This document shows, in pieces, positions 2,443 through 35,888 of a stretch of 64,000 bases of DNA. How positions within the stretch are numbered: the first letter of the stretch is position 1; every line of letters begins with the position of its first letter. The notes below the pieces were generated by a model that worked only from the letters and a program-made list of their open reading frames with translations, did not search any database and was not told where the DNA came from. The position numbers were made by a program, and so were the translations under genes. Where the stretch lies: positions 248,001-312,000 of the forward strand of contig JAQSCO010000060.1 of assembly GCA_029945445.1 (NCBI GenBank). Direction: 5' to 3'. This stretch comes from Lacunisphaera sp. (GTDB lineage: Bacteria; Verrucomicrobiota; Verrucomicrobiia; Opitutales; Opitutaceae).

Positions 2443-2689
2443 GAGGACGAAAGGAGCTGAGAGGGTAACGGGGTGAGGCGCCGACCAATCCAACGGGCTG
2501 GCGGGCCACTAGCAGCGTATTCGGGCGCTGACAGTAAGACTGCTGACGCCAGCCCGGGTTCTCCGCGAGGGAAAACTGGCATGGGGGACCCGCGTCTCTG
2601 CGCGTCGCGGAGATTTTGTGGGCACCCCACCTCCAGCCAACCTCGCGTCCTGCCTTGTCACCCGCTCCGCGAGCCGTCGTTGTGGGCGC

Positions 2690-5293
2690 GTGTCCGCACT
2701 TCCGCCCGCCCCCCTCGCCCCGCTGACCGGTTCACCCGGTCCGGACGCCGTGCTGGACCGGTTCCTCGCGGCGATGGCGGCCAAGGGTCTGACGCTTTAC
2801 GCCGAGCAGGAGGAGGCGATCCTCGAACTTTTCGCCGGCAAGAACGTCATCCTCAACACGCCGACAGGGTCCGGCAAATCCCTCGTCGCGGCCGCCCTGC
2901 ATTTCAAGGCCCTCTGCGCCGGCCAGCGCTCCGTCTACACCTGCCCGATCAAGGCGCTGGTGAACGAAAAATTCCTCAGCCTCTGCCGCGACTTCGGTCC
3001 CGAGCACGTCGGCATGATGACCGGTGACGCCTCCGTCAATCCCCAGGCCCTCGTCCTCTGCTGCACCGCGGAAATTCTCGCCAACATTGCCCTCACCCGC
3101 GGCGACCGCGCCAAGGTCGCGGCGGTCATCATGGACGAGTTCCATTATTACTCCGACGCCGAGCGCGGCTACGCCTGGCAGGTGCCGCTGCTCACGCTGC
3201 CGCAGGCGCGCTTCCTGCTGATGTCGGCGACGCTGGGCTCGACCGACTTCTTCGAACGCGACCTGACACGCCTCACGGGCTCGCCGACCCTCACCGTCCG
3301 CAGCGACCGCCGGCCCGTGCCGCTGGCCTTCGAGTATTCCGAGACGCCCCTCGCCGAGCGCGTGGCCGACCTGCTCGCGACCAACCGCGCGCCGGTCTAC
3401 CTCGTGCATTTCACCCAGCGCGCGGCCGCCGAGGCGGCCCAGTCGCTGATGAGCCTCGCGCTCTGTTCCAAGGAGGAGAAGGCCGTCCTTACCACCGAGT
3501 TGGAGCGCGTGAAATTCAACAGTCCCTACGGCAAGGACATGAAGCGCTGGCTGCGCCACGGCATCGGTGTCCACCACGCTGGCCTCCTTCCGAAATATCG
3601 CATCCTCGTCGAGTCGCTCGCGCAGAAGGGACTCCTCAAGCTCATCTGCGGCACCGACACGCTCGGCGTCGGCATCAACGTCCCGATCCGCACCGTGCTC
3701 TTCACGCAACTCTGGAAATACGACGGCACCAAGGCCGCCATCCTCAGCGTGCGCGATTTCCGGCAGGTCGCCGGCCGCGCGGGCCGCGCCGGCTTCGACG
3801 ACCAGGGCTATGTCATCGCGCAGGCGCCCGAGCATTTCATTGAGAACAAGCGCGCCGAGGCCAAGGCCGCCGCCAACCCGGCGAAAAAGAAGCCGGCCAA
3901 GCAGTCCGCCCCCGAGGGCTCGGTCGTCTGGGATGCAAAGACCTACGAGCGACTCAAGACCGCCGCGCCCGAGGAACTCGTGTCCCGCTTCGACGTCTCG
4001 CACGGCATGCTGCTGCTCGTGCTCAGCCGCGACGCCGACGGCTGCCGCGCCATGCGGAACCTCATCCGCGACTGCCATGAGCGCCCGGCCCGGAAGGCCG
4101 CGTTGCGCAAGCGCGCCTGGCAGCTCTTCCGCGCGCTCGTTGATCGAAAGATCGTGGAATTCCTCCCCTCCGAACCTGTAGGGGCGTCGCTTGACGACGT
4201 CCGCGGGCGTTCACAAGGGGCGCCCCTACAAAGAAAGTTGCGTGTGAATGTCGAGTTGCAGGACGACTTCTCCCTCCATCAGGCGCTCTCCCTCTACCTT
4301 ATCGACACACTGCCGAAGCTGGACAAGGAGAGTCCGGACTACCCGTTCGACGTGCTCACGCTCTGCGAGGCCATCGTCGAGGACCCCGACCAGATCCTCC
4401 GCCGGCAGGTCGACAAGGAGAAGACGATCAAGATCAACGAATGGAAGGCCGCCGGCATTCCCTACGACGAGCGCATGGCGAAACTCGAGGAGGTCGAGCA
4501 CCCGAAGCCGCTGCGCGAGTTCCTCTACGAGACCTTCAACGCCTTCGCCGCCGCGCACCCGTGGATCGAGCAGGAGAACGTCCGGCCCAAGTCCATCGCG
4601 CGCGAAATGTTTGAACGCTACCTGTCCTTTGCCGACTACGTGCGCGACTACGGCCTCGAGCGCAGTGAGGGCCTGCTGTTGCGCCATCTCATGCAGACGT
4701 GGAAGGTTCTGTCCCAGACCGTGCCGGACAGCGCGAAGACGGAGGCCGTGACCGAGATGGAGGATTATTTCCGCGAACTCATCCGCGGCATCGACTCCAG
4801 CCTGCTCGACGAGTGGGAACGGCTGCGGAACCCCGGGTTCATCGCCGCCGAGGTCAGCGACAAGCCCGCGCGTCCCGCCAGCTACGACATCACCCGCGAC
4901 GGCGCCGCCTTCAAGCGCCTCGTGCGCACCGCCGTCCTCGGCTTCCTGCAGGACGCCAACGCCCGCGACTGGGAGGCGGCGGTGGCGCGTTTAGCGACTG
5001 TAGCCGGGGTCGCCGACCCCGGTCTCGCGGCCGTCGCAGAGTCGCGCCGGGTTGAAAAGGAATTCGCCGCCTACTTCGACGCCCGCGGCCGATTCCGCCT
5101 CGATCCCGCGGGCCGCTCGGCGCTCAACACCCACATCGCCGAGGACGGCCCGAACTGGCAGATCGGGCAAATGCTCATCGATCCCGAGGGCCTCAACGAC
5201 TGGGAGGCACGCTTCACGGTCTCGTTGGCAGAGTCCCGTGCGGCCAATGCGGTGGTGTTGCGTTTTGAGGGCGTGGGCCCGGTCGGAAGTTAG
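2690..5293 (+). CDS. DEAD/DEAH-box helicase with DUF3516-like C-terminal region
   Basis: An 867-residue superfamily 2 helicase of the Ski2/Mtr4-like bacterial type. Visible motifs are Walker [10 protein letters not shown], Walker B D-E-F-H, S-A-T-L-G-S-T (motif III), H-H-A-G-L-L-P, and motif [11 protein letters not shown]. The C-terminal half, with [11 protein letters not shown] and E-N-V-R-P-K-S-I-A, fits the DUF3516 region of these helicases. It should unwind RNA or DNA in the cytoplasm. The GTG at 2690 is preferred over the ATG at 2618, because the latter sits in a small palindrome (GTGGG-CAC-CCCAC) and adds a non-conserved tail; another GTG is at 2750. Two palindromic repeats are embedded in frame (4177-4230 and around 5004-5022). 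Confidence 0.85.
4177..4230. repeat. In-frame palindromic repeat inside the helicase gene (family B)
   Basis: Perfect 10-bp end arms TGTAGGGGCG (4177-4186) and CGCCCCTACA (4221-4230) enclose a smaller GTCG-CTTGA-CGAC stem. The length is 54 nt, exactly 18 codons, with no stop in the helicase frame; it encodes about residues 496-514 ([13 protein letters not shown]...). The same GTAGGGGC end sequence is found in intergenic copies at 5331-5393 and inside 30334-30473, so this is a mobile-type repeat captured by a gene. Confidence 0.8.
4997..5041. repeat. Second in-frame palindromic repeat inside the helicase gene (family C)
   Basis: The core at 5004-5022 is a perfect 19-nt palindrome, CCGGGGTCG-C-CGACCCCGG, preceded by TGTAG and followed by a GC-rich tail to about 5041. 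It is read in the helicase frame as [17 protein letters not shown] and falls in a variable segment between two conserved parts of the DUF3516-like region. The boundaries of the full element are uncertain; only the 19-nt core is certain. Confidence 0.6.
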
Positions 5294-5295
5294 GT

Positions 5296-5429
5296 GGAGG
5301 GCCCGCGTCTCTGCGGGCCGCTCGAAGAGGTAGGGGCGGTTGCCCTCAACCGCCCTTGCCTGCTGAAGGGCCGTTGAGGGCAACGGCCCCTACCTAGATT
5401 ACCCGGGATCGCAGGGACGCGAGCCCTCC
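5296..5429. repeat. 134-bp nested composite palindrome (families A and B)
   Basis: The outer arms are GGAGGGCCCGCGTCTCTGCG at the left and, reversed, GGAGGGCTCGCGTCCCTGCG at the right. Inside lies a second inverted pair built on GTAGGGGCGGTTGCCCTCAA (left, from 5331) and GTAGGGGCCGTTGCCCTCAA (right, reversed, to about 5393), with a short loop TGCCTGCTG-like. The whole fills the gap between the stop of the helicase (5293) and the stop of the convergent spermidine-synthase-like gene (5433). It can fold as a long two-tier hairpin on either strand and probably stops transcription both ways. Confidence 0.85.
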
Positions 5430-30082: not shown

Positions 30083-30337
30083 ATGAAAGCAATAGTCACC
30101 GGCGAACCGGTCAGCCGTCGCGCCTTGCTGGAAAAGCAAGCGCTCGTGCTGGCGAAATATTGTCCCGTCGACAGCGGCAATCCCCTCATCTGCCCCCTTT
30201 GCGAGCTACGCAAGCTCGGTGCGCGAGCCCGGCGCGCCTGGGTGCGCCGGCTCACGCGGTCGGATTTGGAATTCCTGACGCTTTATCACGCGACCTGTTC
30301 CGCGGAGCGCCGGCGTGATGCGGCCGGCTCCTGCTAG
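30083..30337 (+). CDS. Small cysteine-containing conserved protein
   Basis: An 84-residue protein of a small family recognised by N-P-x-x-C-P-L-x-x-x-R ... W-x-x-x-L ... E-F-L-x-L-Y-H-x-x-C. Here the motif reads S-G-N-P-L-I-C-P-L-C-E-L-R-K-L and later F-L-T-L-Y-H-A-T-C, with four cysteines that may bind a metal. The function is not known; such proteins are typically 80-100 residues and single-copy. The ATG at 30083 gives a normal-length member. The TAG stop (30335-30337) lies within the end of the repeat element that follows. Confidence 0.68.
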   Translation: MKAIVTGEPVSRRALLEKQALVLAKYCPVDSGNPLICPLCELRKLGARARRAWVRRLTRSDLEFLTLYHATCSAERRRDAAGSC

Positions 30338-30473
30338 GGCGGTTTAAGAAATGTCGTAGCCGAATCGGGCGTGGACGAGCCACGCCCCTACATGCCTCAT
30401 CGTAGGGGCGCGCCTTGTGCGCGCCCGGTTTGGGGGCAATCCAACGGCTACACTTCTATTTGAACCGCTCTAG
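30334..30473. repeat. 140-bp MITE-like element with CTAG termini supplying both flanking stop codons
   Basis: The element starts CTAGGGCGGTTTAA (30334) and ends TTGAACCGCTCTAG (30473). The terminal inverted repeats match at about 21 of 29 positions. Inside are two perfect 8-bp hairpins, GGGCGTGG/CCACGCCC and GGGCGCGC/GCGCGCCC, with GTAGGGGC motifs shared with family B repeats. The left CTAG contributes the TAG stop of the small cysteine protein and the right CTAG the TAG stop of the peptide transporter on the other strand. Confidence 0.75.
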
Positions 30474-35816: not shown

Positions 35817-35888
35817 TGTAGGGCCGCCGCTTGTCGGCGTGCCGGCTCGCGAACATCCCACGGCACGGCGACAAGCGCCGGCCCTGCA
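35817..35888. repeat. Palindromic repeat between convergent genes
   Basis: The left arm TGTAGGGCCGCCGCTTGTCG (35817-35836, continuing GCGTGCCG) and the right arm ending CGACAAGCGCCGGCCCTGCA (35888) match over about 28 bp with few mismatches; the loop is GCTCGCGAACATCCCA-like. The TGTAGGG ends put it in the same group as family B. It lies between the stops of the dodecin and RhlE-like helicase genes. Confidence 0.75.

Follow-up and report, generated by a model that had tools for sequence, protein, structure and literature searches.

The DNA analysed here, called the window, is a stretch of 64,000 nucleotides from Lacunisphaera sp. (Opitutaceae, Verrucomicrobiota). Close to its beginning lies a gene for a Ski2/Mtr4-like helicase that is read in frame through a GTAG-type REPIN at positions 4177-4230, and a further REP and REPIN lie within and directly behind the same gene. 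The features of the locus are as follows.

2618-5293, + strand: host gene for a Ski2/Mtr4-like helicase (DEAD, DUF3516), 891 aa when read from the GTG start at 2618
4154-4246, + strand: insertion hotspot, comprising the strands at residues 513-515 and 541-543 plus the intervening loop (structure model, orthologue alignment)
4177-4230, no strand assigned: REPIN (inverted pair of GTAG REPs), in frame, GTAG...CTAC core at 4178-4229, residues 521-538
4178-4202, + strand: left REP, a GTAG-tagged hairpin (comparison with other copies)
4205-4229, - strand: right REP, inverted (comparison with other copies)
5000-5022, + strand: further in-frame REP of the helicase gene, GTAGCCGGGGTCGCCGACCCCGG, at another region of variable length
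5330-5393, no strand assigned: intergenic REPIN of a different subfamily, directly downstream of the helicase stop codon

The open reading frame 2618-5293 runs across the element without a stop. A gene finder places its start at 2750, and homology begins at about residue 30 in the numbering from 2618. The protein contains DEAD, helicase C and DUF3516 domains, the last (PF12029) scoring 498.2 bits against a cut-off of 25. Sequence profiles cover the two RecA domains only (four alignments shown), and the best solved structural relatives are Mtr4, Ski2 and Hel308. Residues 41-733 of an AlphaFold2 model align with human Mtr4 (7s7b_A) over 581 residues in VIA-align (Z 33.5, rmsd 3.2), a structural match that takes in the helicase core and the C-terminal domains of a Ski2-like fold. 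The host protein thus has the same fold as Mtr4, Ski2 and Hel308, but is bacterial and carries the DUF3516 region (PF12029). In Mtr4 and Ski2, the arch is borne by the winged-helix domain; in the model, helix 490-509 together with a two-stranded hairpin may correspond to the winged-helix wing of the superfamily. Mean pLDDT of the model, built from 49 alignment rows, is 81.5, and the insert is placed between the short strands 513-515 and 541-543, with values below 50 at residues 522-535 that may reflect either disorder or a thin alignment there. The loop is accordingly modelled as the tip of a beta-hairpin, as if disordered.

The sequence of 4177-4230 is TGTAGGGGCGTCGCTTGACGACGTCCGCGGGCGTTCACAAGGGGCGCCCCTACA, two inverted hairpins in the layout of a REPIN, with the conserved GTAG at the hairpin feet (4178-4181, its inverse at 4226-4229) and one stem mismatch in each half. 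The folding energy of a 69-nt segment is -39.4 kcal/mol (z = -5.1), none of 200 shuffles being equally stable, and the longest inverted-repeat arm of the loop measures 10, where shuffles reach 9 at most (p = 0.01). A 54-bp element with perfect 10-bp ends, as reported in the preliminary description, is thus present. Its count of exactly 18 codons without a stop holds for what the element supplies and for the open frame, whereas the net gain over the short loop of relatives is 16; the residue numbers it gave, 496-514, depend on the start codon, the insert being 521-538 when counted from 2618. Of the repeat ends it placed elsewhere in the window, those at 5330-5393 form the REPIN of a different subfamily, and those at 30367-30426 are part of a six-copy MITE. 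One-mismatch matches at 35817 and 37672 received no call in a strict single-hairpin scan, which likewise makes none on the two halves of the element itself because each stem has a mismatch. Counted within the window only and allowing at most one mismatch, the 10-mer has 7 matches against a shuffle mean of 4.18, and 12 of 100 shuffles reach 7; this is not above chance, so the whole genome is needed to show the repeat.

Across the genome, the pattern GTAGGGNCGNNGCTYGNCGNCG has 46 matches and its reversed control none, the dispersal in many copies expected of a REPIN; it is also found in 100 of 252 genomes of the family. The exact 10-mer occurs 53 times, all placed against genes and 3 at contig ends, several of those within genes being lone matches with no surrounding REP. 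The strict GTAG-hairpin scan of 0.83 Mb yielded 90 GTAG sites and misses the 4177-4230 element. Among eleven other four-letter orders, five gave 47-79 sites (one, TAGG, overlaps the tag) and six gave 24-41; because these controls score high, the strict scan carries little weight by itself, and longer patterns and complete dimers were relied on. Twenty complete dimers were located in the 0.83 Mb, nine intergenic, two at gene edges and nine in open frames of genes, counts that reflect a sample chosen mainly around repeat copies and gene assignments made with a home-made codon-usage gene finder. Several intergenic dimers have an identical layout and the same 52-nt core length as the element in the helicase gene. 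The proposal that a normally intergenic repeat became coding sequence is supported: the repeat is dispersed and often lies between genes, and the sister copy has a short loop (see below). With the strict scan, 4 of 15 pairs lie in genes, including a pair from a different subfamily in the gene of an HrpA-like helicase, compared with 9 of 20 for the looser dimer pattern.

A RAYT gene on contig C45 (NF047646, 94.8 bits, cut-off 80) is flanked at both ends by REPs of the 4177-4230 type, as expected of a cognate transposase. Its HVH and YLLLNP we take to be the HUH and tyrosine motifs, respectively. At L022:1069-1782, the C-terminal frame of the RAYT continues through two flanking REPs, so that REP-coded peptide decorates the transposase too.

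Reading phase is strongly skewed among the nine in-gene dimers. Eight are in phase 0 (GTA-GGG-GCG) and none in phase 2, which holds TAG. Outside genes, phase 0 is open in 20 of 22 readings and phase 1 in 17 of 22, so stops explain the phase-0 bias only partly, in a small sample. By gene names assigned here from Pfam matches, the hosts include homologues of purL (FGAR-AT), UxaE, an FGGY kinase, hsdM, the DNA polymerase III alpha subunit (dnaE), a pyridine nucleotide-disulphide oxidoreductase (lpd-like), a TPR protein and uvrA; an HrpA-like DUF3418 helicase carries a REPIN of another subfamily. In-frame capture by unrelated genes, as described for Rickettsia palindromic elements, is common in the genome of the window. 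In the lpd-like oxidoreductase (L154), the REPIN sits in a loop (C55:104980-105033). Aligned with 19 relatives, 4 of the 20 copies bear a REP-derived insert in this one loop, seemingly a single element, apparently the same in G208, G136 and G167, while several others have different extras or none. Judged from these alignments, the lpd-like loop may be a second hotspot.

The preliminary description had treated the 18 residues as an addition to the helicase, and the orthologues bear this out. The first 30 read, counting the copy in the window, include 17 that lack an insert and keep the basic 54-nt loop segment of the type I-P-R-Q-P-S-G-R-K-L-R-V; the loop is short also in G213, the sister copy on the helicase tree (SH-aLRT 99). 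Matches at E<=1e-60 are found in 180 of 252 family genomes. The 149 full-span matches listed omit some 30 weaker genomes, including insert-bearing G010, G067, G091, G126 and G129, as well as G028, a partial match; 72 of these 149 have the basic length of 702 nt, and 30 have at least 24 extra nt anywhere in the 250-residue query. The window copy measures 750 nt, and the difference from 702 nt gives the net gain of 16 codons, the 18 of the element less roughly two from the earlier loop. In an alignment of 88 orthologues, a set chosen to include long matches and hence enriched for long loops, 35 are longer by 8 or more residues at reference positions 505-511. The next length-variable sites (541-543, 714-719, 767-774 and 815-817) are each affected in a handful of genomes, far fewer. 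G097 (L047), with a short loop, is missing from this alignment. In G016 (L224), the helicase matches split into two frames near the loop, which could represent a frameshift, a degraded gene or an assembly error. Stops flagged in some orthologue matches were considered as signs of lethal REPs; long open frames suggest instead that these stops lie near match ends.

The REP at 5000-5022 is unrelated to the 4177-4230 element. Similar sequence occurs in L026 and L029, and L032 and L033 have a different REP-like palindrome at this site.

The long loops were compared with 52 of the 53 insert-free loops, using segments of about 30 residues for the latter and inserted segments of 51 to 297 nt. An inverted repeat at p<=0.02 is found in 12 of 35 long loops and in none of the 52 controls, and a GTAG tag in 15 of 35 compared with 2 of 52. 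One or the other marks 21 of the 35; the dispersed families represented number at least four, and nested or tandem arrangements occur among them. The remaining 14 have neither, and part of the length variation therefore has another origin or reflects decay. Classification by hand gave 23 palindromic loops, compared with 21 in this objective test; G113 passes the test but is unclassed, whereas G130, G133 and G169 are hand-classed yet fail it.

The inserts fall into several types. GTAGGG(N)CG-type inserts occur in G000 (the genome of the window), G003, G130, G167, G207 and G208, and GTAGCSGCGAG-type inserts in G043, G067, G091, G170, G171 and G186, with a decayed one in G133. G054 carries a GTAGGGGCGCAGTCTTG-type insert, GTGGGGCC dimers fill the loop in G025, G031 and G126, and GGGAGCGCGG dimers in G129, G169 and G185; inserts in G010, G192 and G195 stand alone. 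Copies were counted in the genomes on both strands, including the loop copy where the pattern fits. The first type has 46 matches in G000, 61 in G003, 17 in G130, 203 in G167, 32 in G207 and 82 in G208 (controls 0). The second has 140 in G043, 164 in G067, 155 in G091 (control 1), 8 in G170, 34 in G171, 221 in G186, 45 in G185, 6 in G133 and 0 in G000, with controls of 0 except in G091. The G054 type is matched 12 times in G054 (control 0), 5 times in G000, 14 in G171, 7 in G003 and 0 in G170. GTGGGGCC has 7 matches in G025, 21 in G031, 12 in G126 (control 0) and 56 in G054, and 0 in five other genomes searched. GGGAGCGCGG has 443 in G169 (control 25) and 108 in G003 (13), though the loop of G003 holds another type; it is not above control in G185 (36 against 27) or G129 (14 against 14). 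The pattern of the G010 insert finds only its own copy in that genome (control 1). Collectively, the counts cover the 23 hand-classed inserts except those of G192 and G195; 18 recur above control in their own genome, and three (G010, G129, G185) are unsupported as dispersed by the pattern tried.

Insertion history was read on a quick LG+G4 tree, built without bootstrap and with the loop columns removed. Parsimony requires 18 changes of insert class without unclassified rows and 28 with them, and 19 changes when palindrome is scored against none. Parsimony is blind to gain versus loss, which makes "about a dozen or more" captures a reading rather than a count. Neighbours with like elements (G130, G207 and G208; G025, G031 and G126) may share one old insertion each. 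In G171, a REPIN precedes CAGCGAGACTGCGCCCCTACG in the loop; the latter is the 3' terminus of another element, the one present in its close relative G054, and in G208 a REPIN is nested in another REPIN. Tandem GTAG units number 7 in G067 (L226) and 2 in its sister G091 (L223). Across related genera, different REP families have landed in the loop time and again.

In the protein, the tandem GTAG REPs of G067 and G091 appear as a RSGERQQADPSGLP repeat segment.

In-frame capture of REPs is already known from single genomes, and the 4177-4230 element belongs to a published kind. In their main text, Di Nocera et al. 2013 (PMC3733652) describe intragenic GTAG REPs in frame, most numerous in the verrucomicrobium Opitutus terrae, with hosts including uvrA, DnaE2, ligase and RNA helicase genes, and suggest that they are tolerated in flexible linkers or loops. 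Most GTAG-20 elements of O. terrae have GTGG according to that text, which fits the GTGGGGCC dimers found here. The O. terrae elements are likewise GTAG hairpins or dimers within genes, but the main text names no cross-genus hotspot and gives a roughly shared site for recB alone, in two Xanthomonas, other genes being hit at different sites (PMC3733652). In the open-access literature, mainly the openings of abstracts, together with the text of PMC3733652 covered here, we found no publication describing a single protein loop as a hotspot for REPs. The cross-genus loop hotspot is thus the part not found in print, although the O. terrae orthologue may be contained in Additional file 3 of PMC3733652. 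As far as the portions available go, Bertels and Rainey 2011 (PMC3116915) and a 2021 paper on TnpA-REP recognition (PMC8266576) share with the window element the inverted REP pair, the GTAG foot and the linked tyrosine transposase gene; REPINs are described there as mostly extragenic or intergenic, whereas 9 of 20 sampled dimers lie inside genes here. Rickettsia palindromic elements, in the parts of PMC3733652 and PMC10969869 at hand, similarly add peptides to unrelated genes as in-frame palindromes. Intragenic Rickettsia repeats are described as CGTC-tagged (RPE-4, RPE-6) or as the longer RPE-1, whereas the tag of the window element is GTAG and not the CGTC that marks the short ones.

We consider it very probable that a GTAG REPIN inserted into a length-tolerant loop of the helicase and kept the frame, giving a probably disordered extension of 18 residues, and that such insertions recur because they are tolerated. 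A REPIN is a non-autonomous mobile palindrome, thought to be mobilised by a RAYT (TnpA-REP) transposase; by analogy with the published TnpA-REP work, as far as described in the portions available (PMC8266576), the RAYT presumably mobilises the present element as well. Such an element would have entered the length-tolerant loop of the Ski2/Mtr4-like helicase (DEAD and DUF3516), and its junctions and codon phase would have kept the frame open, GTA GGG GCG being read as V-G-A and the TAG of one other phase avoided. With the frame open, the helicase gene survived and now codes for the extension, which would form a hairpin tip, probably disordered. To survive within a gene, such an element would have to be read in a stop-free phase, change the length by a multiple of three and hit a site that the protein tolerates; the helicase loop offers such a site. 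Different REP families would have entered the same loop independently in related genera, the recurrence following from tolerance there. The element is most likely a selfish passenger and the loop a tolerated landing pad, the captured peptide probably a flexible tip without function. The extended helicase is presumably expressed and the insertion presumably near-neutral.

A palindrome arisen by chance in a loop that is rich in GC and evolves fast, with no mobile element involved, would fit the window-only count of the 10-mer, which is not above chance at one mismatch. We give it a vanishingly small probability in view of the folding z of -5.1, the 46 genomic matches to the REP pattern, with none for the control, the intergenic dimers built alike, several of them with the 52-nt core, and the short loop of the sister; the genome-wide copies rule it out. 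Beyond mere tolerance, the loop could be a preferred DNA target whose sequence or single-strand structure attracts the transposase. That many lineages were hit by different families, with nesting in G208 and a G054-type remnant in G171, speaks for such targeting, but insert boundaries vary (after P in G167, EP in G000 and RDPAT in G054), short loops have no evident shared DNA motif by eye, and other sites of the gene (reference 541-543, 714-719, 767-774, 815-817) are length-variable too, which together make it unlikely.

Still less likely, in our estimate, is that the peptide or the mRNA hairpin is retained for a use, such as altering the RNA path at the hairpin tip or slowing translation. The hairpin of -39 kcal/mol within the open reading frame, the long loop in many lineages and the tandem expansion in G067 (7) relative to G091 (2) could be cited in its favour; against it, 72 of the 149 orthologues listed have the basic 702-nt length, inserts vary in sequence and length, and model confidence is very low there. 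Tolerated insertion remains the reading we prefer. We advance more tentatively, at somewhat less than even confidence, that the hairpin tip is a long-lived landing pad, with about a dozen or more REPIN captures, replacement, nesting and tandem growth, possibly including preferred targeting. If so, loop length would evolve largely by mobile palindromes across one bacterial family. A single loop filled again and again by different REP families across genera offers natural replicates of how palindromes insert, decay, nest and grow in tandem within a conserved protein. Such a series could separate site targeting by REPINs from mere survival, and bears on mobile palindromes as a regular source of new loop sequence.

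Elsewhere in the window, a MITE of about 140 bp occupies 30334-30473, with CTAG-flanked, TIR-like ends (GGCGGTTTAAGAAATG...), and encloses a pair of GTAGGGGCG-type REPs. Six alike copies are present in the stretches sampled, others being located on C48, C51, C57 and C60 (two, one more diverged).
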